DNA of 64,000 nt from an uncultured Alistipes sp. (GTDB taxonomy: Bacteria; Bacteroidota; Bacteroidia; Bacteroidales; Rikenellaceae). This document shows positions 9,533 to 49,886 of the stretch, piece by piece (the first letter of the stretch is position 1; every line of letters starts with the position of its first letter). The stretch covers positions 40,719-104,718 of the forward strand of contig CALUJN010000079.1 in the NCBI GenBank assembly GCA_944320985.1, read 5' to 3'. The notes below the pieces were generated by a model. That model had not been told where the DNA came from. It saw nothing but the letters and a program-made list of their open reading frames with translations, and did no database searches. The translations under genes and the position numbers were made by a program.

Positions 9533-10906
9533 TCAGCGACGGGATCCCCGGGCAACGAACAGGGCAAGGATGAACGACAGTGCCGACGCCGTGATCCAGA
9601 AGATGATGGCGGTGCCGAAATCGTAACGGGTGATCCCGTCGACGACCGTCTTGCCCGAATCAATGAGCCAACCGCTGACGATGTCCTGCAACCCGGCGCC
9701 CACGTAGCTGGCCATACCGACGATGCCGAGTGCGGCGCCCGTGGCTTCGCGCGGCACGATATCGATGGCCATCAGCCCTCCGAGGAAGCAGATCAGCACG
9801 CCGATGGCCATGCCGAACAGCACCATCGAGAGCAGGTTGACGAACATGCCGTTGCCCGAATAGAGGAAGAGGGCCAGGGCCAGGGTGTTCAGCACGCCGA
9901 ATCCAAAAGCCAGGACGTTGCGCCGTCCGTGGAAGAGACGGTCCGAGAGCCATCCCGAGAAGACCGTTCCGACAATTCCCAGCAGGGCATTCACCGAGAT
10001 GACCTGCGTGGCCGTCGCCAGCGAGTACCCCTTGACCTCCTGGAGGAAGAGCACGCCCCAGCCGTTGATCGCATAGCGGCTCACATACATGAAGGCGCTC
10101 GACAGGGCCAGGATCCACACGAACGGATTCCGGATCACGGAGCGTTGCAGTTCGGAGGTGGTGCCGTGTTTACGGCTCTGCTCCTCGGACTCCTCGCCGG
10201 TCAGCACCCCGATCGGAGGCAGCCCCTTCGATTCGGGGGTGTCGTGTAACAGAAAGAGGATAATCACTACGCCAACAGCCCCGGCTACCGAGGAGCCGAC
10301 GAATCCCCACTGCCAGCCGAAGATTCCCACAACGGCGCCCACGAAGAGAAACGAGAGGAATTCGCCGAGGTTGTGGCTGGCGCTGAAAAAGCCGTAATAG
10401 GTGCCGCGGATGCTCAACGGATACCAACGCGAGAGGGCGATGATGGCCGGAGGTGCGCCCATCGACTGCGCCCAGCCGTTGATCCCCCACATCACGGCAA
10501 AGGCCACGAAGAGGGTCATGTTACCCACGAACCCGCCGCCGTTGGCAAAGCCCAGCAGTCCGACCAGCAGGTTCGCCACCGTCGAGACGCAGAGTCCCGC
10601 GGCCATGAAGCGTTTGATGTTGCTGTGGTCGGCGAGGAAGCCGTTAACGAACTTTCCGATGGCATAGGCGAAGAGCAGGGCCGAGCCGATCAGACCGAGT
10701 TGCGAGGCATCGAGCGCCCCGCTTTCGAGGATGGGCTTCTTCACCACGTTGAGACTCGTACGACAGACGTAGTAGAGGCTGTATCCGACGGTTCCGGCCA
10801 CAAAGCTCTGGAAACGAAGCCTGCGATAGAGTTTCATGCGGGCCTCGTCGTCACCCGTGAACGGAGCCGAGGGTTCGCTTTTACGAAAAAAGGATATGAC
10901 AGACAT
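9533..10906 (-). CDS. MFS organophosphate:phosphate antiporter (GlpT/UhpC type)
   Basis: This 457-residue protein has about 12 membrane helices. Family features include the early YYVCRTSLNVVKKP segment, the LADHSNIKRFMAAGL loop and the WGINGWAQSMGAPP helix of the organophosphate antiporters. These exchange glycerol-3-phosphate or hexose phosphate for phosphate across the inner membrane. It is the last gene of a run with two phosphodiesterases and two EEP enzymes, and starts 2 bp after an EEP stop codon. That context favours glycerol-3-phosphate or a similar product as substrate; this is inference. Confidence 0.88.
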   Translation of the reverse strand: MSVISFFRKSEPSAPFTGDDEARMKLYRRLRFQSFVAGTVGYSLYYVCRTSLNVVKKPILESGALDASQLGLIGSALLFAYAIGKFVNGFLADHSNIKRFMAAGLCVSTVANLLVGLLGFANGGGFVGNMTLFVAFAVMWGINGWAQSMGAPPAIIALSRWYPLSIRGTYYGFFSASHNLGEFLSFLFVGAVVGIFGWQWGFVGSSVAGAVGVVIILFLLHDTPESKGLPPIGVLTGEESEEQSRKHGTTSELQRSVIRNPFVWILALSSAFMYVSRYAINGWGVLFLQEVKGYSLATATQVISVNALLGIVGTVFSGWLSDRLFHGRRNVLAFGFGVLNTLALALFLYSGNGMFVNLLSMVLFGMAIGVLICFLGGLMAIDIVPREATGAALGIVGMASYVGAGLQDIVSGWLIDSGKTVVDGITRYDFGTAIIFWITASALSFILALFVARGSRR

Positions 10907-10908
10907 GA

Positions 10909-11796
10909 TTATTCCACAAATTCAAGTTGAACCAATACCGGGAAATGATCCGACGGCGTACGGGCCCGATAACGGAGTTCGCCGTCGGAGGACTCTTCCG
11001 AGCGGTAGGTGTCGGTCAGAATGCCGTAGCGCAGGACACGGAATCCCGGGCTCACGAAGAGGTGGTCGATCCGCCGGAAGTTCCGAATATCGGGATCAAA
11101 CCAGTTCTCCGTGCCGGTCATGGCATAACGAATCCCGGCCTGTTCGAAAGCATCCGCAAGGAATCCCGAGTCGTGCAGGATGGCGTAACTCTCGCTCGTC
11201 TCCCCGACATTGAAGTCGCCGGTCAGGATCACATGTTCCGAGCCGCACATTTCGCGGATCTTCGCCAGCACCAACCGACAGCTTTCGATCTGCGCCTGCG
11301 TTCCCTTGTGATCCATATGCAGGTTGAAAAACCAGAAGCGGTGCTGCGTCTGCCGGTCGAGGAAACGACCCCAGCAACAGATCCGGACATACCTGGCATC
11401 CCAGCCCAGGGCCGGCCGCGCAGGGTCCTCGGCGAGCCAGAAATGGCCCTCGTCAAGCAGTTCGAAACGGTCACGTTTGTAGAAGACGACGCAATATTCA
11501 CCCGCTTGGGCGCCATCGTCACGCCCCACGCCCGTCCAGCCGTACCCGGGCAGTGCTGCCGCGAGATCCTCCAACTGACTGTGGAACACCTCCTGGGCGC
11601 CGAAGATCTCAAAGTCGTGGAAGCGCACGAGCTGGGCAATCACGGGACACCGAACCGCCCAGCCGTCGCCTCGGGCATCATCCTCGGCGTTCAGCTGGCG
11701 GATATTGTAGGTGCCAGTCCGGAGCGTCTGTCCGTGCACGGTCCCTGCTCCCGCAACCGCGGTGAGCCAGAGGCCAATCAACAAAAGCCTTCTCAT
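10909..11796 (-). CDS. Secreted endonuclease/exonuclease/phosphatase family protein
   Basis: The 295-residue protein has a signal peptide ending near GTVHGQ and a complete EEP domain: GTYNIRQLN, FGAQEVFHSQ, NLHMDHKG, TGDFNVGE and a final SDHFPV. The family covers DNases, sphingomyelinases and phosphoinositide phosphatases. The wide active site and the GDPD gene 13 bp upstream suggest a phosphodiesterase or phosphatase acting in the periplasm on head-group phosphates, but the substrate is not proven. It overlaps functionally with the larger EEP protein at 12790-14805. Confidence 0.87.
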   Translation of the reverse strand: MRRLLLIGLWLTAVAGAGTVHGQTLRTGTYNIRQLNAEDDARGDGWAVRCPVIAQLVRFHDFEIFGAQEVFHSQLEDLAAALPGYGWTGVGRDDGAQAGEYCVVFYKRDRFELLDEGHFWLAEDPARPALGWDARYVRICCWGRFLDRQTQHRFWFFNLHMDHKGTQAQIESCRLVLAKIREMCGSEHVILTGDFNVGETSESYAILHDSGFLADAFEQAGIRYAMTGTENWFDPDIRNFRRIDHLFVSPGFRVLRYGILTDTYRSEESSDGELRYRARTPSDHFPVLVQLEFVE

Positions 11797-11809
11797 CGTT
11801 GCAGACCTG

Positions 11810-12721
11810 TTACGGACGACGTCCTTTGGATTCGAGATAGCGGATCAGAAACTCCGGACGGTCGGTCTGGATGATCGTCGCCCCCAGGTCGAGCAAACGC
11901 CCGTAGACGGCCTCCGTCTCACCGCGGAAGGCCCGGTCATCGTCCAGTCCGCCACAGAGCGACGGCCAGAGCGAGTTGACCCAAAGCTTCGAACCTCCGT
12001 CGACGACCTGCCGCATGCACGCCTCCACCTCGGGGGTCAGCGTATCCCAGCAAATCTCGTAGGCCAGCGGCTGCTCCTCGCAGGCGCGGTAAGCCTCGAA
12101 GAGCTCGCGCCCCTGGGGTTTAAGGATGTCGCTGATCGGCATGTACATCATGTTGTGGGGATACTCGGCGAACTTCGCGGCCACGACTTCGGCGGGACGC
12201 TTGCCCTTGATGAGGACCTGATCGGTCATGCCGAGCTCCTCGGTAACGGCCAGCGCCAGGTCATAGTATTCGTACCCCTGGTCGATGTTGACCACGATGC
12301 GGTCCTTGCAGACTTCGAGCGCCTCGCGGAGCGTGGGCATGCGCAGCGCGGTCTTCACGCCGTGGCCGGTCCGCAGCACGCACCGGCAGATCGAATCATA
12401 GGTGATGTCGCACACCTGTCCGTGACCGTTGGTCGTGCGGTCGATCGTCTTGTCGTGACAGAGCACCAGCACGCTGTCGCTCGTCAGTTTGAGGTCAAGC
12501 TCCATGATATCGACCCCCATGTCAATCACCGACTCGATGGCGTCGATCGAGTTTTCGGGCCAGTTCCGCCAGTCGCCGCGGTGCGAGACGACCAGCACGT
12601 TCCTCGACGTCGGGTTACGAAGTTCGGCGAGGATCCGGTCGGTTGTACGGAGCGCGGCCGGATCGGATTGCGCGGTGCACGAGCAGAGCGCCGCCGCAAA
12701 CAGAAATAAAATACGGTTCAT
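11810..12721 (-). CDS. Glycerophosphodiester phosphodiesterase lipoprotein
   Basis: This 303-residue protein has a short signal with a lipobox-like LCSC (Cys15) and one GDPD TIM-barrel domain. The active-site motifs are all there: HRGDWRNWPENS (catalytic His and metal Glu), MELDLKLT and LCHDKTIDRTT. It should hydrolyse glycerophosphodiesters to glycerol-3-phosphate and an alcohol in the periplasm or at the membrane. The downstream EEP and MFS genes follow with gaps of 13 and 2 bp, so the three probably form one unit. Confidence 0.92.
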   Translation of the reverse strand: MNRILFLFAAALCSCTAQSDPAALRTTDRILAELRNPTSRNVLVVSHRGDWRNWPENSIDAIESVIDMGVDIMELDLKLTSDSVLVLCHDKTIDRTTNGHGQVCDITYDSICRCVLRTGHGVKTALRMPTLREALEVCKDRIVVNIDQGYEYYDLALAVTEELGMTDQVLIKGKRPAEVVAAKFAEYPHNMMYMPISDILKPQGRELFEAYRACEEQPLAYEICWDTLTPEVEACMRQVVDGGSKLWVNSLWPSLCGGLDDDRAFRGETEAVYGRLLDLGATIIQTDRPEFLIRYLESKGRRP

Positions 12722-40900: not shown

Positions 40901-42889
40901 ATGCTTTTTCTCTACACGCTACTGTTCCTCGTGCTCGTCGTCGCGGCGGTCTTCGCGACACCGCTGCGGAGCAAGATCTGGACGGCCCTCGCCCTGACGG
41001 GAGCCGGAGCGCTGTGGGCCTCGATCCACGCCGTGAGGGTGCTGGCCGGCGGCACCGTCGAGGCATTGTGGACGATTCCCGACACCCTCTTCGGAGGGGA
41101 TTCGGGGTCGCTGGACCCGCTCTCGGCGCTCTTCGTCCTTCTGATCTCGATCGGAGGCGTCGCCTCGGTACTCTATTCGCGGGGCTACCTGGCCCACACG
41201 CTGGCGGAAAAATCCCCGGCCCACGTCTCGCTCCACTACACCTCCCTCACGGTGATGTTCTACGCCATGCTGGGCGTCGTCTGCTCCGACGGAGGCCTTT
41301 CGTTCCTCTTCTTCTGGGAGTTGATGACCGTGGCGTCGTTCCTGCTGATCCTCTACGACGCCCAGCGCCGTGAGGTAAGCCGCGCGGCACTGGCCTATCT
41401 GATCATGATGCATATCGGCTTCGTGCTGCTGGTCGTGGGCTTCGTACGGCTCGACGCCGTCTGCGGTACGGCCACGTTCGAGGCCTTGGGGCAATACTTC
41501 CGCACGCAATCCCCCCTGCCGCTCTTTCTGGTCTTCCTGGCAGGCTTCGGCATGAAGGCCGGAGTGTTTCCGATGCATGTCTGGCTTCCGGAGGCCCATC
41601 CGGCCGCTCCGTCGCACGTCTCGGCGCTGATGTCGGGCGTAATGATCAAAACGGGCGTCTACGGCATCCTGCGCACGGTGGCGGCCCTCGGAGAGCTTCC
41701 CGTGCTGCATACCGCCGGCGTAATTCTTCTCGTGCTGGGGATCGTCACCGGACTCTGGGGCGTGATGCTGGCCGCCACGCAAAACGACGTAAAACGCCTG
41801 CTGGCCTACTCCTCGATCGAAAATATCGGCATCATCCTCCTCGCGCTGGGCATCGCGGCCCTGGGCAAGGCCTCGGGGAATCACTTCGTGGCGCTGTGCG
41901 GCATCGCCGGAGCCCTGCTCCACACGCTCAACCACTCGTTCTTCAAGTCGCTGCTCTTCTTCGGCGCCGGAAACCTCCTCTCACAGACGCACACCACGTC
42001 GCTCGATGCGCTGGGAGGCGTCTCGAAACACATGCCCCTGACGTCGCTGCTCTTTCTCGTCGGAACGGCCGCCATCTGCGCCCTGCCGCCGCTCAACGGC
42101 TTCATCTCGGAGCTCATGATCTACCTCGGGCTGCTGGACGGCATCGCCTCGGGGAGCGACATCCTCGCCTCGGCGGCAGGTCTGGCCTCGCTGGCGCTGA
42201 TCGGAGGGGTCGTGGTGCTGGCCTTCACCAAACTCTACGGTACGGTCTTCCTCGGTTCGCCGCGCTCGCATGAGGTGGCCGAAGCAACCGAAGTCGACAA
42301 CCTGCGCATCGCCGCCATGGCCCTGCCGCTGGCCGGAATCCTCTTCGTGGGTCTCTTTCCGCAGGCGGCCGTGGCCTGCGTGACGCGCGCCGCAGGCTTC
42401 TTCCTGCGCACTCCGGCCGATGCCGCCGACTGGCTGCTCTCGCCGACGCTCGTAGCGGCCGGACGCATCGCCTGGCTGCTGATCGCCGTCACGGGCGTGC
42501 TGCTCTGGCTCCGCCGCCGCACGCTGCGCGGCCGCCGCATCGCCGAAGGCCCCACCTGGGGTTGCGGCTTCACGTCCCCGAACACCCGGATGCAATACAC
42601 CGGTGAATCCTTCTCCGAGGGGCTGCAGGCCATCGCCACCTCGCTCACACAGAACAGCGGCGAGGGATCTCCCGTGGGCAAGGGCGAAATCTTCCCCGAC
42701 GCCCACCGCTTCGACATCGGCCACCGCGACCGTATCGGACGCCTCTTCTCGGCCTGGTGGGTCGAACTGCTGCGCGTGATCAACCAGCGCGTCATGCGGC
42801 TGCGCACGGGAAAGATCAACCACTACGTGCTGTTCGCCCTGGCCTTCCTCGTGCTGGTCTTCCTGTTGTCCATTCTCAACGTAATCTGA
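40901..42889 (+). CDS. HyfB/NuoL-like proton-channel subunit of a hydrogenase-4-related complex
   Basis: The 662-residue protein has about 14-16 membrane helices and a proton-pumping antiporter domain. Motifs are FFWELMTVASFLLILYD, MKAGVFPMHVWLPEAHPAAPSHVSALMSGVMIK, NDVKRLLAYSSIENIG and HTLNHSFFKSLLFFGAGN. The key channel charges (Glu in helix 5, Lys in helix 7, Lys and His in later helices) are present. The tail block TWGCGFTSPNTRMQYTGESF is typical of HyfB/HycC. It opens a tight run of six complex-I-like genes (gap 4 bp to the next). Confidence 0.93.
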   Translation: MLFLYTLLFLVLVVAAVFATPLRSKIWTALALTGAGALWASIHAVRVLAGGTVEALWTIPDTLFGGDSGSLDPLSALFVLLISIGGVASVLYSRGYLAHTLAEKSPAHVSLHYTSLTVMFYAMLGVVCSDGGLSFLFFWELMTVASFLLILYDAQRREVSRAALAYLIMMHIGFVLLVVGFVRLDAVCGTATFEALGQYFRTQSPLPLFLVFLAGFGMKAGVFPMHVWLPEAHPAAPSHVSALMSGVMIKTGVYGILRTVAALGELPVLHTAGVILLVLGIVTGLWGVMLAATQNDVKRLLAYSSIENIGIILLALGIAALGKASGNHFVALCGIAGALLHTLNHSFFKSLLFFGAGNLLSQTHTTSLDALGGVSKHMPLTSLLFLVGTAAICALPPLNGFISELMIYLGLLDGIASGSDILASAAGLASLALIGGVVVLAFTKLYGTVFLGSPRSHEVAEATEVDNLRIAAMALPLAGILFVGLFPQAAVACVTRAAGFFLRTPADAADWLLSPTLVAAGRIAWLLIAVTGVLLWLRRRTLRGRRIAEGPTWGCGFTSPNTRMQYTGESFSEGLQAIATSLTQNSGEGSPVGKGEIFPDAHRFDIGHRDRIGRLFSAWWVELLRVINQRVMRLRTGKINHYVLFALAFLVLVFLLSILNVI

Positions 42890-42893
42890 CGCC

Positions 42894-43808
42894 ATGGCAC
42901 TGCTCAATACCCTTCTGATCCTGTTGGCGGCCCTCTGCATCCCGGGGCTGATCAACCGCACGCGGGCCCGGCTGGCGGGCCGCAAGGGCATCCGTTTCGC
43001 ACAACACCTCTATGACGTACATCTGTTGCTGCGCAAGGGGGCCGTCTATTCGACCACAACCACCGCGCTCTTCCGCACGGCACCGTCGGTCATGCTGGCC
43101 ACCTCGCTGCTGGCCATCCTCTTCATTCCGGTGGGCGACCTGCGGCCGCTCGTCTCGTTCGACGGCGACGTGGTGGCCTTCGCCTACCTGCTGGCGCTGG
43201 GACGCGGGGCGCTGATCCTGGCGGCCATGGACACCGGAAGCTCCTTCGAGGGGATGGGCGCCAGCCGCGAGGCGCTCTACGGCGCACTGGTCGAACCGGC
43301 GCTGATGCTTACCTTCGGAACACTGGCCCTGCTCTCGGGCCACACCTCCTTTGCCATGCTCTTCGAGGCCGGGGCCGCCGACGATACGAAACTCATCATC
43401 GTCCTGCTGCTGGCAGCCTACGTGCTGACGAAAATCGTCTTCACCGAGAGCGGCCGCGTGCCGGTCGACGATCCCCGCACGCACCTTGAACTGACGATGA
43501 TCCACGAGGTGATGTGCCTGGACTACTGCGGCGTCGATCTGGCCTACATCAAGATGTCGACCTGGCTCAAGAGCGCCGCGCTGTCGATGCTCGCGGCCGA
43601 TGCCGTGGCTGCGGCCGTCTGTCCGCGCTGGTGGTTCGCGGCGCCGCTGGCCGTCGTGCTGACGGGGCTCTCGGTGGGCATCGTCGAGTCGACCCAGGCC
43701 CGCAACAAACTCGTCCGCAACACCACCTTCATCCTTACCATCACGGCACTGGCCGCCCTGGTCTTCTTCACGGGCTACCTGCTGCAACTTAACATCGCGA
43801 TCCAATGA
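42894..43808 (+). CDS. HyfC/NuoH-like membrane subunit
   Basis: The 304-residue, ~8-helix protein is the homologue of complex I subunit NuoH, linking the membrane arm to the hydrophilic arm. The family segment TESGRVPVDDPRTHLELTMIHEVM holds the conserved acidic loop, and GSSFEGMGASREALYGALVEPALML matches the quinone-chamber helices. The stop overlaps the next gene by 4 bp. It keeps all features needed for structure, although the peripheral subunits have lost metal ligands. Confidence 0.93.
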   Translation: MALLNTLLILLAALCIPGLINRTRARLAGRKGIRFAQHLYDVHLLLRKGAVYSTTTTALFRTAPSVMLATSLLAILFIPVGDLRPLVSFDGDVVAFAYLLALGRGALILAAMDTGSSFEGMGASREALYGALVEPALMLTFGTLALLSGHTSFAMLFEAGAADDTKLIIVLLLAAYVLTKIVFTESGRVPVDDPRTHLELTMIHEVMCLDYCGVDLAYIKMSTWLKSAALSMLAADAVAAAVCPRWWFAAPLAVVLTGLSVGIVESTQARNKLVRNTTFILTITALAALVFFTGYLLQLNIAIQ

Positions 43809-44434
43809 TTCTGCCGCTGATTCTCCTCTATGTCGTGACGCTCGTCTACCTCTCGATCACGGAGCGTTTCCGCAACTTCGCCTCGCTGATCGGCCTGCAG
43901 GGATGGCTGCTCTTCGGCATCGCCCTCGTGCGGCTGCATGCCGCCAACCCCGCCGAGCTGGCCTTCGTGGCTCTCGAAACGCTGTTGTTCAAGGGAATTC
44001 TGGTTCCGTGGCTGCTCTTCGCCGTGATCCGCCGCACGCGCATCAACCGCGTGAAGCGCTCGGGATCCTCGCAGGCGGGATCGCTGCTGCTCTCGCTCGT
44101 GGCGCTGGCCGTAAGCGCTTCGCTCACCTACTACATCGCCGATTCGACGGTCGACCTGGTCTTCTTCGGCGTGGCGCTCTACTCGCTGCTGAGCGGACTA
44201 ATCCTCATCGTCCTGCGCCGTCGGATCTTCTCGCACATGGTCGGCTTTCTGGTCATCGAGAACGGTGTTTTCCTCTTCTCGACAGCCATCGGCGTGGAGA
44301 TGCCCCTGCTGATCAACTTCACCATTCTGCTCGACATCCTCATCTCAGTGCTGATGCTGGGCATCTTCTTCACCAAGATCGACGACAAGCTCCACGCCGA
44401 CGACGCCGATTCACTGACCAACGTAAAGGACTGA
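43805..44434 (+). CDS. HyfE-like membrane subunit
   Basis: The 209-residue protein has about six helices and matches hydrogenase-4 component E, a fusion-like relative of NuoK: HMVGFLVIENGVFLFSTAIGVEMPLLINFTILLDILISVLMLG carries the conserved glutamate that lies in the E-channel of complex I. It starts four bases inside the hyfC-like gene and ends 4 bp before the hyfF-like gene. Confidence 0.9.
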   Translation: MILPLILLYVVTLVYLSITERFRNFASLIGLQGWLLFGIALVRLHAANPAELAFVALETLLFKGILVPWLLFAVIRRTRINRVKRSGSSQAGSLLLSLVALAVSASLTYYIADSTVDLVFFGVALYSLLSGLILIVLRRRIFSHMVGFLVIENGVFLFSTAIGVEMPLLINFTILLDILISVLMLGIFFTKIDDKLHADDADSLTNVKD

Positions 44435-44438
44435 CGCC

Positions 44439-45839
44439 ATGATCGCCTACCTCATTGCAAGCATCCTGATCGCCTCGGCGGCCTTTCTGACCCGCCGCGA
44501 ACGGCAACTCTTCCTTACGGGCGTGCTCTTCTACGCCGTACAGGCAGCCTTCGCCTGCGCGATTCTCTTCGGCAGCCTCTACGGCGAAGAGTCGGCCGCG
44601 TGGTTCCGCTTCGACGCCGCGGGGACCCTTTTCTATGTGCTGCTGTGCCTCGTCTCGGCCTTCGCCTACTTCCACTCCGAAGCCTACCTGCGCGACAACG
44701 ACCCGGTGCAGACCCGCGCCTATTCGGCGCTGGTGATGCTCCTCACGACGGCCATCACCGGGGCCTACTTCGCCTCGAACCTGGCCGTGACGTGGATCTT
44801 CCTCGAAGCCACGACGCTCTGCTCGGCGGGAATCATCTACCACCGGCGGACGGCCCAGACGCTCGAGGCGGCGTGGAAGTATGTCTTCGTCTGCTCGACG
44901 GGCATCGCCATGGCCTACCTGGGCATCCTGCTGCTGGCCGCCGCCACCGACTGCGAATCGCTCGACTATGCCGCCCTCACGGCCTCGGCACCCCACGGCA
45001 ACGCCCTCTATCTGAAGATCGCCTTCCTGCTGATCGTCTGCGGCTACAGTTGCAAGATGGAGCTCTTCCCGCTCTACACCGTGGGCATCGACGCCAACTT
45101 CGCGGCGCCGTCGCCGGCCTCGGCGCTGATCTCCACGGGACTGGTCAACGCCGGATTCCTGGCCATCTACCGCGTCTACCGGCTGCTCTCCGCGACGGAG
45201 GTCTTCCCGTGGGTACGCTCCGTGCTGCTGATCGTCGGCGTGCTGTCGCTCGTCATCGGGGCGCTGTTCCTGCGCCGCACGAACAACTACAAGCGCTTCC
45301 TCTCCTATTCGACCGTCGAGAACATGGGCATCGCCGCCATCGGCCTCGGAGTCGGCGGCATCGGCGTCTGGGCCGCGGTGTTCCACGTCGTCTGCCACAC
45401 CTTCATCAAAAGCAGCCTCTTCCTGCAGATGGCCGTCGTCCGGCAGGTCTACAACGGCTACCGCATCAACCGCATCGGCGACTATATCCACATCAACCGC
45501 GTCGGCGCCGTGGGGCTTCTGACGGGTATGGTCGTACTGGTGGCCTTCCCGCCCTCGCCGCTCTTTCTCTCGGAGCTGATGATCCTGCGCGAAACGATTG
45601 CCGGGGGCCGCTGGTGGCTCGTGGCGGGGTTGCTGCTGCTGTTGTGCATCGTCATCTACTCGTTCTGTTCGCGCATGATCCGTCTCTGCTACCAGCCCAA
45701 TCAGGATGAACTGCACCCCTCGAAGGTCGACCGGGCCCTCTCGTGGTCGGCCCTCTCGCTGCTGGTCGCAGCCATGGTGCTGGGGCTCTGGCAACCGGAA
45801 ATCCTGCGTGAAGTGATCGATCAAATCGCCCTGTTATGA
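44439..45839 (+). CDS. HyfF/NuoN-like proton-channel subunit
   Basis: The 466-residue protein has about 14 helices and a second antiporter-type channel: WIFLEATTLCSAGIIYHRRT, CGYSCKMELFPLYTVGIDANFAAPSPASALISTG and NNYKRFLSYSTVENMGIAAIG. HVVCHTFIKSSLFL is the usual lysine helix. It overlaps the large-subunit gene by 4 bp. With the HyfB-like protein the complex has two full antiporter-type subunits. Confidence 0.92.
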   Translation: MIAYLIASILIASAAFLTRRERQLFLTGVLFYAVQAAFACAILFGSLYGEESAAWFRFDAAGTLFYVLLCLVSAFAYFHSEAYLRDNDPVQTRAYSALVMLLTTAITGAYFASNLAVTWIFLEATTLCSAGIIYHRRTAQTLEAAWKYVFVCSTGIAMAYLGILLLAAATDCESLDYAALTASAPHGNALYLKIAFLLIVCGYSCKMELFPLYTVGIDANFAAPSPASALISTGLVNAGFLAIYRVYRLLSATEVFPWVRSVLLIVGVLSLVIGALFLRRTNNYKRFLSYSTVENMGIAAIGLGVGGIGVWAAVFHVVCHTFIKSSLFLQMAVVRQVYNGYRINRIGDYIHINRVGAVGLLTGMVVLVAFPPSPLFLSELMILRETIAGGRWWLVAGLLLLLCIVIYSFCSRMIRLCYQPNQDELHPSKVDRALSWSALSLLVAAMVLGLWQPEILREVIDQIALL

Positions 45840-47365
45840 ACTACCTTGTAACCGACAATACCTCGGGGGCCCTGCGTCTGGAGGAGATTCCCGAGATCCC
45901 GTACGCCACGTTCTACGAACTGATGCACACGTGGCTCGCCGATGAACGCCACCACGTGGCCCACTACTTCGCCCTGCCCTCCGACGACCGGATGCGCTTC
46001 TACTGCCTGGTGCTGGACGATGCGGAAGGAAAGATCCTCGTCACCTCCCATGCCATGGGCTACTACGACGAGACGCACCTGCCGTCGCTCACGGCCCTGC
46101 ACCCGCAGATGCACCCCTTCGAGCGGGAGATCGCCGAGCGCTACGGCATCCGCTTCGACGGACAGCCGTGGCCCAAACCGCTGCGCTTCCCCTTCGACCG
46201 CTACGACCGCCAAAGTTCGATCGACAACTACCCCTTCTACACGATGGCCGGAAAGACGCTGCACGAGGTCAACGTGGGTCCGATCCATGCGGGGATCATC
46301 GAACCGGGCGCCTTCCGTTTCATCTGCAACGGCGAACAGGTTCTCCACCTCGAAATCGCACTGGGATACCAGCACCGGGGCGTGGAGGCGGCCTTCACCG
46401 CGACGGAGAACCGCCTGCGTCAGATGTGCCTGGCCGAGGCCATCGCCGGAGACAGCGCCGTGGCGCATGCTACGGCCTTTGCCGAGGCGATCGAGAAGCT
46501 CACCGGACGCGAACGCCCCGCACAGCTCGACCGGGAGCGGGCCGTGGCCCTCGAACTCGAGCGCATGGCCATGCAGATCGCCGACACGGGAGCCCTCTCG
46601 ATGGATACGGGCTACCAGTTGGGACAGGTGGCCTGCGAGGCGCTGCGCACGATGACGATCAATACCACACAGGCGTGGTGCGGAAACCGCTTCGGCAAGG
46701 GGCTGATCCGTCCGCACGGCACGGACCACCCGCTCACACCGGCCAAATCGGCCATGATCCGGCAGAACGTGCGCGAAATCGCCCGCCGTTACGACGAGGT
46801 GCGCCGCGACATCGAATCGTCGCCCACGCTGCTGGCGCGTTTCGAACAGTGCGGCGTGGTGCCGCGCGAGGAGATGCGCCGCATCGGGGGCGTAGGCCAG
46901 GCGGCACGCGCCAGCGGGCTGGCCCGCGACATCCGTGCAACGCACCCCTGGGGCTCCTACGGCAAATGCCTCCATCACGAGAGCGTCGTCGAGACTTCGG
47001 GCGACGTAATGGCACGTCTCGAGGTGCGCAGCCGCGAGGTCGCACAGTCGGCCCGTTACATCGACCGTCTGCTGGAGATCTACGAACGGAAATACGGCAA
47101 GCTGGAAAATCCCTGCGGAACGCCCGACTACACCACCTCGCTGACCCCTTCATCGCTCGCGTTCGGCATGGTCGAGGGGTGGCGGGGCGAGACGTGCCAC
47201 GTCGTCTTGACCGATGCCGAAGGGCGTCTTGCAGCCTGCCGCATCAAGGATCCGAGCCTGCACAACTGGATGGCTCTGGCCCTGGCCGTGCGCGGCGAGG
47301 GTATCTCGGACTTCCCGATCTGCAACAAGAGTTTCAACCTCTCCTACTGCGGCCACGATCTTTGA
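45836..47365 (+). CDS. HyfG-like large subunit (NuoC+NuoD fusion) lacking NiFe ligands
   Basis: The 509-residue protein joins a NuoC-like domain (LHPQMHPFEREIAERYGIRF, 89-107) to a NuoD/NiFe-large-subunit domain (GPIHAGIIEPG at 148-158, LEIALGYQHRGVE at 172-184). In true group 4 hydrogenases the next helix has RICGIC; here it is AIAGDS, so Ala204 and Ser207 stand at the two cysteine places. The C-terminal DPCxxC is NLSYCG, with Ser503 and Gly506. NiFe cannot be bound in the usual way. The tail NKSFNLSYCGHDL recalls Ehr-type complexes. What it binds is unknown. Confidence 0.92.
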   Translation: MNYLVTDNTSGALRLEEIPEIPYATFYELMHTWLADERHHVAHYFALPSDDRMRFYCLVLDDAEGKILVTSHAMGYYDETHLPSLTALHPQMHPFEREIAERYGIRFDGQPWPKPLRFPFDRYDRQSSIDNYPFYTMAGKTLHEVNVGPIHAGIIEPGAFRFICNGEQVLHLEIALGYQHRGVEAAFTATENRLRQMCLAEAIAGDSAVAHATAFAEAIEKLTGRERPAQLDRERAVALELERMAMQIADTGALSMDTGYQLGQVACEALRTMTINTTQAWCGNRFGKGLIRPHGTDHPLTPAKSAMIRQNVREIARRYDEVRRDIESSPTLLARFEQCGVVPREEMRRIGGVGQAARASGLARDIRATHPWGSYGKCLHHESVVETSGDVMARLEVRSREVAQSARYIDRLLEIYERKYGKLENPCGTPDYTTSLTPSSLAFGMVEGWRGETCHVVLTDAEGRLAACRIKDPSLHNWMALALAVRGEGISDFPICNKSFNLSYCGHDL

Positions 47366-47428
47366 TCCGGCCATCCGGCCGGCAACCGCCCCCCCCCGAT
47401 CCGCATCCATGCGATTCGCGGAAAGGGG

Positions 47429-47459
47429 TTGTAGGTTCCACGGCTTTTCACTATTTTTA
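47429..47459 (+). promoter_or_regulatory. Possible internal promoter before the small-subunit gene
   Basis: TTG (47429-47431), 20 bp, then TATTTTTA (47452-47459), one base off the -7 consensus. It lies in the only long gap (114 bp) of the operon, downstream of a run of nine C (47389-47397). Confidence 0.3.
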
Positions 47460-47479
47460 CGGGCATAAAAATTGCAACG

Positions 47480-48244
47480 ATGATTCTACCGAAAATACGG
47501 GTTTTGCGCAGCCACGGACGTCAGGCTATCGAGGATCTCGACGCCGTAACACTGACTGAAGAGTTCCGGGGGCGTCCCGAACTGACCTTCACCGAGGAGA
47601 CCGACGACGCGGAACGCGCCGCGGCGATCTGCCCCACGGGAGCCTTCACGGCCGACCCGTTGACGCTCGATCTGGGCCGTTGTCTCTTCTGCGGGGAGTG
47701 CGCCCGGGTGGCGCCGCGCAACGTGCGCTTCACGAACGACTACCGCATCGGCTCCCCCACACGCGAAGGACTGGTGCTCCATGCCGGAGACACCTGCGTG
47801 GCATTCGATCCGCAGAGCGTCCGGCCCGAAATCCGCCGCTGCTTCCGTCAGGCCCTGCAGCTGCGTGAGGTCTCGGCCGGCGGCGATGCCTCGGTCGAGA
47901 TGGAGCTCAACGCCACGGGAAATGGCAATTTCGACCTCGGGCGCTTCGGAATCGGCTTCACGGCCTCACCGCGCCATGCCGACGGCGTGGTGGTCTCGGG
48001 CCCGATCTCGGCCAACATGGCCGAGGCGCTGGAGATCTGCTACGACGCCGTTGCCGAGCCGAAGATCCTGGTGATGTGCGGTACCGAGGCCTGCTCCGGA
48101 GGGCTCTTCGCCGAGAGCCGGGCCGTCGACCGGCGCTTCCTCGAAACCCACACCCCGGACCTCTGGCTGCCCGGAGCTCCGACCCACCCGATGACCTACA
48201 TCGACGGATTGCTGACGCTTCTGGGCCGCAAAAAACGCAACTGA
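47480..48244 (+). CDS. Ferredoxin-NuoB fusion subunit lacking the proximal cluster ligands
   Basis: The 254-residue protein has an N-terminal ferredoxin-like part with one usable [4Fe-4S] site (Cys51 of CPTGA with Cys68, Cys71, Cys74; Ala78 replaces the last Cys of the second motif). The rest is a NuoB/HyfI small subunit: RFGIGFTASPRHADGVVVSGPIS and PGAP...YIDGLLTLLG. The four cysteines of the proximal cluster are replaced: GGCxxC by GGDASV (Asp136, Val139), the third by Glu203 and PGCP by PGAP (Ala233). Two other cysteines (200, 205) lie near the third site. It ends 10 bp before a chromate transporter gene. Confidence 0.88.
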   Translation: MILPKIRVLRSHGRQAIEDLDAVTLTEEFRGRPELTFTEETDDAERAAAICPTGAFTADPLTLDLGRCLFCGECARVAPRNVRFTNDYRIGSPTREGLVLHAGDTCVAFDPQSVRPEIRRCFRQALQLREVSAGGDASVEMELNATGNGNFDLGRFGIGFTASPRHADGVVVSGPISANMAEALEICYDAVAEPKILVMCGTEACSGGLFAESRAVDRRFLETHTPDLWLPGAPTHPMTYIDGLLTLLGRKKRN

Positions 48245-48254
48245 AAAGAGAGAG

Positions 48255-48818
48255 ATGGAACGTCTGTTCACGATATTCGGTTCGTTCTTCAAGATCGGGC
48301 TCTTCACCTTCGGCGGGGGCTACGCCATGATCCCCCTGATCGAACGCGAGGTGATCGACAACCGCAAATGGATCGAACGCCGGGAGTTTCTCGACCTGTT
48401 GACCCTGGCCCAGTCGGTTCCGGGCCCCATCTCGCTCAACACGTCAGTCTTCGTGGGGTACAAACTCCGGGGGTTGCGGGGTGCGGCCGCCGCGCTGCTG
48501 GGTGTCGTCGTGCCGTCGTTCGTCATCATCCTCTTCATCGCCCTCTTCTTCGCCGACATCCGCCACAATCCGGTTGTCGACGCCGCCTTCAAGGGAATGC
48601 GCCCGGCGGTCGTGGCCCTGATCATCGGCCCGGTAATCTCGCTGGCCCGCGGCATGCACGGGTCGATGTTCCTCGTCATCGCGGCCGCCGCGCTGGCCGT
48701 CTGGGGGTTGGGCTGGTCGCCGATCTGGGTGCTGGTGCTCGGCGCTGCCGGAGGCATCGCCTGGGAACTGGCCGTGGCCCCGAAGATCGCCCGACACAAA
48801 AACAAACCCGAAGCATGA
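48255..48818 (+). CDS. Chromate transporter, N-type half
   Basis: The 187-residue protein is one half of a ChrA (CHR family) transporter: FFKIGLFTFGGGYAMIPLIEREVI, LTLAQSVPGPISLNTSVFVGYKL and FKGMRPAVVALIIGPV. Short CHR proteins work as pairs; the partner half is at 49305-49886. Chromate or sulfate-like anions are the known substrates of the family, but many gut members are uncharacterised. Its stop overlaps the next start (ATGA). Confidence 0.93.
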   Translation: MERLFTIFGSFFKIGLFTFGGGYAMIPLIEREVIDNRKWIERREFLDLLTLAQSVPGPISLNTSVFVGYKLRGLRGAAAALLGVVVPSFVIILFIALFFADIRHNPVVDAAFKGMRPAVVALIIGPVISLARGMHGSMFLVIAAAALAVWGLGWSPIWVLVLGAAGGIAWELAVAPKIARHKNKPEA

Positions 48819-49291
48819 ATCCGATACAAGCCATGAAACACAGCCTGCCGCTGGTTCTGCTGCTCCTTGCAGCGACATCCGCCGGCACGTCCACGGCACA
48901 TTGCGCCACCGTCGGCAATACGGAGGAATCCACCCTGTCCTCCACCCCCGCCACGGAAGAGGTTCGGAAGGCGCTGGAACAGTTTTACCGGGAATACGCC
49001 GGCTGGATCGCGGGCCGTTTCGACGAGCGGCCTGCGAAACCCGACTCGCCTCTGACCGATTCCGCCCGCCGGAAGGTGGAAAAAGCAGCGGTCGAAACGG
49101 GTGGGGATCCGCTCATCCGGGCCCAGGATTTCAACAAGGAGTCGCTGCCGACGATCACGGTCGAACATGTCGTGGGCCCGTGGTATGCCATCGCCTATCT
49201 GTCCACGTACGAAAACCGCTGCGTCGTCATTCCGGTCCGCGCCACCGTGCGCAAGGGAAGACTGGAGATTTCCGACATCACCCTACTCTGA
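48815..49291 (+). CDS. Small secreted protein, possible DUF3828 type
   Basis: The protein of 158 residues (or 152 from ATG 48833) has a signal peptide (MKHSLPLVLLLLAATSAGTSTAHC). The mature domain contains VRKALEQFYREYAG, DPLIRAQDF and a C-terminal VVIPVRATVRKGRLEISDI. The layout is that of the NTF2-like DUF3828 group, but I hold this loosely. It sits between the two halves of the chromate transporter, with ATGA overlap on one side and 13 bp on the other, so it may be a partner of that transporter. Confidence 0.75.
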   Translation: MNPIQAMKHSLPLVLLLLAATSAGTSTAHCATVGNTEESTLSSTPATEEVRKALEQFYREYAGWIAGRFDERPAKPDSPLTDSARRKVEKAAVETGGDPLIRAQDFNKESLPTITVEHVVGPWYAIAYLSTYENRCVVIPVRATVRKGRLEISDITLL

Positions 49292-49304
49292 CACCCTCCA
49301 CGAC

Positions 49305-49886
49305 ATGATCCTTCTCTGGCAACTCTTCGTATCGTATCTCAAGATCGGATTCTTCGGATTCGGCGGCGGCTACGCCATGCTGTCACTCATCCAGAACGAG
49401 GTGGTCGTACAACACCAATGGCTTACCAATGCGCAGTTCGCCGACATCGTGGCCATCTCGCAGATCACACCCGGACCCATCGCCATCAACTCGGCAACCT
49501 ACGTAGGCTATACCGTGGGGCTGGAGACCGGCTATGCCTGGTGCGGCGTGCTGGGATCGGCCATCGCGACCTTCGCGGTCTGTCTGCCATCGCTCACACT
49601 CATGATTCTGGTGGCACGTTTCTTTCTCAAGCTGAAGGATAACCGACTGGTCGAAGGGGCCATGCGGGGAATGCGGCCCGTGGTGATCGGCATGATCGCC
49701 GCCGCGGCGCTACTGCTGATCTTTCCCCACAGCACGGAACCCGACGAGCAGAACTTCATCGATGCCTGGAGCTGGGTCCTTTTCGGCGGGGTCTTCCTCG
49801 GTTCGTGGCGCAAGGTGAACCCCATCCTGCTGATCATCCTCTCGGCCGTGGCCGGAATTCTGATCTATTACGTATTCGGACACTGA
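49305..49886 (+). CDS. Chromate transporter, C-type half
   Basis: The 193-residue protein is the second CHR half: YLKIGFFGFGGGYAMLSLIQNEV, ISQITPGPIAINSATYVGYTVG and EGAMRGMRPVVIGMIAAAALL. With the gene at 48255 it should form a heterodimer of opposite topology. The start ATG 49305 follows the small secreted protein by 13 bp. It ends the long plus-strand run that begins at 40901. Confidence 0.93.
   Translation: MILLWQLFVSYLKIGFFGFGGGYAMLSLIQNEVVVQHQWLTNAQFADIVAISQITPGPIAINSATYVGYTVGLETGYAWCGVLGSAIATFAVCLPSLTLMILVARFFLKLKDNRLVEGAMRGMRPVVIGMIAAAALLLIFPHSTEPDEQNFIDAWSWVLFGGVFLGSWRKVNPILLIILSAVAGILIYYVFGH

Follow-up and report, generated by a model that had tools for sequence, protein, structure and literature searches.

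What can a relative of respiratory complex I do when the residues that hold its metal sites have been replaced? This question was raised by an operon in a 64,000-nucleotide stretch of DNA from an uncultured Alistipes sp. (GenBank assembly GCA_944320985.1, contig CALUJN010000079.1, positions 40,719 to 104,718 of the forward strand), the whole of which is called the window here. Six + strand genes form a tight operon at 40901-48244, in the order B, H, E, F, L, S. They are predicted to encode a membrane part (B-H-E-F) and a cytoplasmic part (L-S) of an energy-converting hydrogenase-related (Ehr) complex. An earlier note on this DNA had read the loss of the nickel-iron (NiFe) ligands in L and of the proximal [4Fe-4S] ligands in S as a property of the window. 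The loss was real here, but it was widespread in Bacteroidota, where the replacing residues were conserved as a set, and other lineages had apparently reached it separately. Two points were absent from that note: the outer ferredoxin cluster was also lost, and the replacements were conserved acids, not random residues.

Loss of the NiFe and proximal-cluster ligands

The ligand places were read from an alignment with E. coli Hyf, the Nuo proteins of the same genome and other Ehr. L was homologous to NuoC, NuoD and HycE, and S to a ferredoxin/NuoI-like domain and NuoB. Both reading frames were intact. The features were as follows.

45836..47365, + strand: L, fused NuoC-NuoD-like large subunit without NiFe ligands, 509 amino acids (PF00346, E 5.1e-31)
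46445..46456, + strand: Ala204-Ser207 of L, first NiFe CxxC place, cysteines absent (alignment)
47342..47353, + strand: Ser503-Gly506 of L, second NiFe CxxC place, both ligand positions non-Cys (alignment)
47480..48244, + strand: S, ferredoxin-like domain fused to a NuoB-like domain, 254 amino acids (PF01058, E 6.3e-16)
47885..47896, + strand: Asp136-Val139 of S, proximal-cluster places one and two (93-row alignment)
48086..48088, + strand: Glu203 of S, proximal-cluster place three (93-row alignment)
48176..48178, + strand: Ala233 of S, proximal-cluster place four (93-row alignment)
47630..47701, + strand: Cys51, Cys68, Cys71 and Cys74 of S, predicted ligands of one remaining [4Fe-4S] cluster (Cys in 80/80 clusterless rows)

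At the NiFe cysteine places of L the alignment gave Ala204, Ser207, Ser503 and Gly506, and at the proximal [4Fe-4S] (N2-type) places of S it gave Asp136, Val139, Glu203 and Ala233. These were the residues that the earlier note had named. Rows were grouped as clusterless or cluster-bearing by their ligand pattern, so the perfect separation of the groups in the ligand columns does not count as independent evidence. Ser503 and Gly506 were kept in 80/80 clusterless and 14/14 cluster-bearing Ehr rows. The aligned Ehr large subunits lacked the NiFe cysteines, with the exception of Mycobacterium branderi, which had one Cys at place 503; one Variovorax row ended before the second NiFe motif. By itself, loss of the NiFe ligands is the feature by which Ehr is already known, and it is nothing new.

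The earlier assignment to the Ehr type was borne out by the absent NiFe ligands together with a Hyf-like membrane module. L had no NiFe CxxC, and the membrane module was of the group 4 type, with homologues of HyfB, NuoH, HyfE and HyfF. The NuoB-type small subunit of Ehr, which has a [4Fe-4S] cluster, was present with the ligands absent. Excerpts of the literature define Ehr by the missing NiFe ligands, and a cluster in the small subunit may or may not be a defining feature too, so the complex was provisionally placed as an Ehr variant. The function of Ehr is called unknown or unproven in these excerpts, or is left undecided. None of the excerpts of PMC6349859, PMC10284858, PMC7304191, PMC10432482, PMC6688271, PMC4378227, PMC8357420 and PMC11228991 reported an Ehr that had lost its proximal cluster; a mention in the 2013 survey that is reported to have defined Ehr is possible.

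The remaining and the lost ferredoxin cluster

One ferredoxin-type [4Fe-4S] site had been proposed at Cys51, Cys68, Cys71 and Cys74 of S. All four cysteines were present in the window and were as invariant as listed above. By the ferredoxin rule, we take them to be the ligands of the second NuoI-type cluster. The outer ferredoxin-cluster motif was found in 0/93 clusterless Bacteroidota rows, where eight pattern matches consisted of the inner motif plus Cys78. It was present in 13/16 cluster-bearing ferredoxin-fused rows and missing in L150, L151 and L152. Among the 80 clusterless rows, 50 had four N-terminal cysteines, 22 had five and 8 had six; 11/14 cluster-bearing rows had eight. The absent motif and these counts indicated that S of this clade has one predicted cluster, versus three in most cluster-bearing fused relatives.

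Conserved replacement residues in Bacteroidota

A genus search with S gave relatives in 22/37 genomes, one of which was a fragment. The same search of 393 sampled Bacteroidales genomes gave strong matches in 89, covering 62/207 genera. In the 86 Bacteroidales rows, including the window, the cluster was lost in 81, the four cysteines were kept in 4, and three cysteines with a Trp were found in 1.

The residues at the former ligand places were not scattered. All four ligands were replaced and exactly two carboxylates stood at the four places in 97/97 readable Alistipes rows (99 rows in all), which comprised 81 distinct sequences (two carboxylates in 81/81). The commonest Alistipes patterns were D/V/E/A (49 rows) and D/I/E/A (24 rows). 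At place 136, the 93 distinct clusterless Bacteroidota rows had Asp (91) or Glu (2); place 203 was Asp in 84, Glu in 8 and Ala in 1, and place 233 was Asn in 85 and Ala in 8. Alistipes had mostly Ala or Thr at the Asn233 place. Place 139 drifted over eight residues (Cys in 63, the rest Ala, Val, Gly, Asn, Thr, Ser and Ile). Since three ligand places are held as a new Asp/Asp/Asn set and the fourth is free, this pattern argues for a function at the site.

The genes were under purifying selection. Pairwise ratios of nonsynonymous to synonymous substitution (dN/dS) against six other loci were 0.04-0.40 across the six genes and 0.09-0.24 for S. The same state was found in cultured strains, namely Alistipes sp. 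An66 (L102), A. montrealensis (L039) and L291, a locus from the A. muris genome.

Cluster loss in other Ehr lineages

Outside the clusterless clade, 26 Ehr small-subunit rows were compared, with lineages outside Bacteroidota drawn from a plasmid collection, which is not a balanced survey. Four proximal cysteines were found in 22 rows and three in one, and the cysteines were lost in three. The cysteine-keeping rows came from Rhizobium, Bradyrhizobium, Azospirillum, Cupriavidus, Paraburkholderia, Caballeronia, Burkholderia, Variovorax and Bacteroidota. The losses were in Allomeiothermus silvanus (T/D/E/S), M. branderi (N/D/D/A) and a fragmentary Bacteroidales locus, G048 (D/C/D/D), which was seen without its L and was left out of the firm independent losses. 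In A. silvanus and M. branderi the outer ferredoxin motif was absent and the inner motif was kept.

M. branderi grouped with Cys-bearing Caballeronia and Burkholderia in the L tree (supports not printed) and in the S tree (support 92). Five cluster-state changes were needed in the L tree, which had 110 rows and a cluster state for 109 of them. The concatenated L+S tree, with 95 rows and the ligand columns removed, needed three. The S tree, built from a random 18 of the clusterless rows plus other rows, needed five and was weakly supported. A single loss in Bacteroidota was not rejected by the approximately unbiased (AU) test (p 0.44), nor was it shown, and the best L+S tree placed four cluster-bearing rows (L283-L286) among clusterless ones. 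These results pointed to at least three apparently separate losses, in Bacteroidota, Allomeiothermus and Mycobacterium, each ending with two carboxylates.

Three further observations were made on these loci. In the G048 locus (L158), no ferredoxin domain was seen beside the D/C/D/D small subunit, and the contig was short. On a Variovorax plasmid (L164), two operons of the Ehr type lay near each other, and in one of them the small subunit was ferredoxin-fused. An A. silvanus plasmid (L165, L171) carried two copies of the clusterless Ehr gene cluster in very similar surroundings.

Search for substitute ligands

The earlier note had considered whether Cys200 and Cys205 of S could take over as cluster ligands, and this was unsupported. 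Cys200 was kept in 94/97 readable Alistipes rows, and Cys205 was Cys in only 58/97. In the 86-row Bacteroidales set, Cys205 was found in the window only and Cys200 in 14/86. Outside the genus both were mostly lost, and the pair is unsupported as a full substitute ligand set. A cluster relocated within S was rejected, since beyond the four ferredoxin ligands the only common cysteines were C187 (63/80) and C139 (54/80).

The membrane arm and Glu156

Pfam and NCBIfam assigned the six genes to hydrogenase-4/complex I subunits, with NCBIfam scores that were all under the cut-offs shown. The membrane subunits and the conserved residue of L discussed below were as follows.

40901..42889, + strand: B, HyfB/NuoL-M-like antiporter subunit, 662 amino acids (PF00361, E 1.9e-55)
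42894..43808, + strand: H, NuoH/HyfC-like membrane subunit, 304 amino acids (PF00146, E 1.8e-24)
43805..44434, + strand: E, HyfE-like membrane subunit, 209 amino acids (NCBIfam hydrogenase 4 membrane subunit, E 1.9e-13, under cut-off)
44439..45839, + strand: F, HyfF/NuoN-like antiporter subunit, 466 amino acids (PF00361, E 5.3e-38)
46301..46303, + strand: codon of Glu156 of L, which aligns with the proton-shuttling Glu21 of MbhL (6cfw_L)

The best NCBIfam model for B was hydrogenase 4 subunit B, with a score under the model cut-off, and the Pfam search gave no match for E. Charged and His places conserved in the membrane subunits of cluster-bearing relatives were kept at 51/57 in the clusterless ones. 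In line with the earlier note, to which the membrane subunits still looked able to move protons, this arm seems mostly intact. In B, K250, K298, H341, H345, K349 and E404 were found in 68/68 rows. The acids E126, E134, E185, E199, E205 and E265 of H were found in 71/71 clusterless rows. F kept E123, K206, K285 and K324 in 72/72 rows and E379 in 71/72.

Glu156 of L was invariant (102/102 rows). In Mbh, an excerpt of PMC11228991 states that Glu21 and the beta1-beta2 loop link the active site to ion transport.

AlphaFold2 models of S and L had mean predicted local distance difference test (pLDDT) scores of 81.5 and 73.0. The closest solved folds were MbhJ (6cfw_J) for the S model and the large subunit of formate hydrogenlyase (FHL; 7z0s_E) for the L model. 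Scores fell below 50 at residues 134-151 of S, around D136, and at 113-119, 122-177, 255-284 and 488-509 of L. Because of these segments, the geometry of the pocket could not be read from the models.

Operon conservation and genome setting

Adjacent genes overlapped or lay at most 5 bases apart, with the exception of a 114-base gap before S. All six were found as separate frames in 72/80 related loci, with an identical order in 72/72. Of the remaining eight, five had genes missing close to the end of a contig, and S was absent from three. In the wider Bacteroidales set, the six genes were all present in 66/85 pieces, always in order, and contig ends cut many of the pieces. The three loci without S were L038, L040 and L050. 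S was found elsewhere in the L038 and L040 genomes, so that its loss was rejected for both, and it was not found in the small L050 assembly. In L102, from a close Alistipes relative, a gene judged by eye to encode a pectinesterase-type secreted protein (10715-11815) lay between L and S, and five more loci (L031-L034 and L064) had a similar L-S gap of 1.2-1.5 kb.

The genome is a draft, 87% complete. It contained five PF00361 genes, three on the contig of Nuo (complex I) plus B and F. Since all five belong to the Nuo contig or the Ehr operon, no Mrp antiporter was seen among the genome-wide PF00361 matches of this draft. An RnfC match was present, and FeFe and NiFe hydrogenases gave no match in the draft. 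A second, canonical NuoB match was absent at E 0.001 in 18/21 genus genomes with a long match, which are drafts.

Ten window neighbours were surveyed in 80 Alistipes loci, 50 of them with full flanks. Among the ten, only the upstream M3 peptidase (71/80) and RsmE (69/80) recurred in most loci, and their adjacency looks like ordinary synteny. Two short genes resembling the two halves of a chromate-transporter-family pair (48255-48818 and 49101-49886) lay directly downstream in the window. They were rejected as partners because they were within 3.5 kb in only 25/80 Alistipes loci.

Proposed coupling and alternative explanations

With NiFe, the N2-type cluster and the outer ferredoxin cluster all gone, no conventional electron path would be left, as the earlier note had argued from the first two, and we infer an absence of electron flow. 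The electron wire would be dismantled at both ends, and the core would conduct no electrons. The conserved carboxylates at the N2 place, the invariant loop residue and the largely intact membrane arm suggested that charge or protonation has replaced the redox step. The complex may thus be a complex I-type ion translocator in which a protonation or charge switch acts in place of the redox trigger; we favor this reading, at somewhat short of an even chance. In this scheme the redox step would be replaced by changes in protonation and charge, both of the acidic pair in the emptied pocket and of Glu156 in the beta1-beta2 loop. Loops of L, S and H would be moved, and would gate a flow of H+, possibly together with Na+ or K+, through B and F. 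The perhaps conformational coupling that the earlier note had suggested remains a hypothesis. The complex would work either as a secondary exchanger of ions or as an ion channel under regulation, with a structural or redox-sensing role for the remaining cluster. A wider proposal is more tentative still. It holds that one branch of the complex I superfamily is redox-free, and that in it L and S would form a protonation- or ligand-driven switch with an Asp/Asp(Glu)/Asn site for N2, reached by at least three conversions, each with two carboxylates and one isolated [4Fe-4S] cluster kept.

Several observations weigh against the ion-translocator reading. Six of the 57 membrane-arm places were lost (one in B, three in E and two in F), and the Tyr213 place of F was His in 19/20 cluster-bearing versus 21/72 clusterless rows. 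L150, L151 and L152 kept the proximal cluster without the outer motif, so that one loss does not strictly go with the other. The structure models were unreliable at the L/S interface. L had cysteines that were common in clusterless rows (C164 in 79/80, C454 in 75/80 and C505 in 70/80). Its places 41, 57, 58, 255, 454 and 456 were Cys more often in clusterless than in cluster-bearing rows, with 4/14 of the latter at place 454; of these places, the window has Cys at 57 and 454 only. C164 and C282 were common in cluster-bearing Ehr too (12/14 each). From these alignments, a relocated site within L is possible. In addition, the invariance of the remaining cluster is as compatible with a redox role as with a structural one, and binding of a substrate or a metal is a possible task of the conserved carboxylates.

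The last two points lead to an oxidoreductase, in which a soluble donor such as ferredoxin would pass electrons through the remaining cluster to a substrate in the vacated pocket, with the Asp/Asp/Asn set as catalytic acids. In complex I the N2 pocket is next to the second NuoI-type cluster, so a transfer distance would be possible, and both the cysteines of the remaining cluster (80/80) and the replacement set are highly conserved. We nevertheless consider it unlikely, because the outer motif on the donor side is absent in 93/93 clusterless rows, the recurrent M3 peptidase and RsmE among the ten neighbours suggest no redox partner, and Asn233 is mostly Ala or Thr in Alistipes. A single metal ion (e.g. 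Fe, Mn, Mg or Ca) on oxygen ligands could instead have taken the place of the cluster and could preserve either the fold or some redox function. In 84/93 rows, oxygen donors occupied at least three of the four places, and oxygen donors also stood there in the other lineages (T/D/E/S, N/D/D/A and D/C/D/D). This seems quite improbable, since Alistipes, including the window, has mostly two donors only (D136 and E203), which are few for a metal site, and no model has a reliable pocket geometry.

It may also be that polar residues passively pack the emptied cavity with water and that L and S are a mere scaffold. An oxidised cluster with four cysteines has a net charge of -2, which two carboxylates match. 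A parallel, in which polar residues stand where a cluster was lost, is the N7 site of complex I: an excerpt of PMC8357420 gives Asp, Asp, Ser, Ser and waters in the ovine enzyme where E. coli has the four N7 cysteines. However, Asp136, Asp203 and Asn233 were held over many genera while place 139 drifted. This is more than packing seems to need, and although it is not decisive we give passive filling little credence. Finally, the operon could be a decaying relic, a pseudogene or an assembly error. Its distribution was patchy (22/37 genus genomes, one a fragment), and in-frame stops, which may be terminal stops, were counted in two genus matches (G036 and G054) and 5/91 Bacteroidales matches. 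In contrast, dN/dS was low in all six genes, and the same residues stood in 81/81 distinct Alistipes sequences, cultured strains included. The selection and conservation data thus already contradict this explanation, and we hold it to be extremely improbable.

Comparison with known systems

The complex shares with other Ehr the Hyf-like membrane subunits, a NuoD-like subunit without NiFe ligands and a NuoB-like subunit. The difference lies in the proximal cysteines, which are kept in 22/26 other rows and replaced in this clade, where the outer ferredoxin cluster is lost too. It shares with Hyf/Hyc (hydrogenase-4/FHL) the HyfB, C, E, F, G, I-like order of the E. coli operon and most membrane-arm charged residues. 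However, this operon has no NiFe ligands, proximal cluster, HyfA or HyfD, and its HyfH-like domain is fused to S with one predicted cluster. The four NiFe cysteines and the proximal cluster of group 4 [NiFe] hydrogenases (Hyf, FHL and Mbh) were thus absent. Complex I has the L and S folds, the invariant acids of the NuoH-like subunit and the antiporter-like subunits in common with it, whereas this operon is without N2 or N6a-type ligands and without NuoE, NuoF and NuoG. The N2 cluster in NuoB, a feature of complex I, is missing. Ile155 and Gly205 of L align with a His and a Tyr of Nqo4 (2fug_4), which we take to be quinone-binding residues, and the quinone-site pair of complex I is absent. Mrp Na+/H+ antiporters have NuoL/M/N-type antiporter subunits in common with it, and redox-free transport is a possible further likeness. 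To our knowledge, Mrp has no NuoB/NuoD/NuoH-like part. No Mrp-specific subunit was found among the Pfam matches of the six proteins, of which E had no Pfam match.

Significance for the complex I family

The central question still facing work on complex I is how ion channels far from N2 are coupled to the electron transfer that takes place there. A natural relative with almost all of the conserved membrane-arm charges in place, but with NiFe, N2 and the outer cluster lost, would separate the ion machine from the electron wire. Its presence in cultured gut Alistipes strains makes it experimentally accessible. An active complex would tell which part of the coupling can run without electrons, and one that is still a redox enzyme would expose a new site that stands in for N2.

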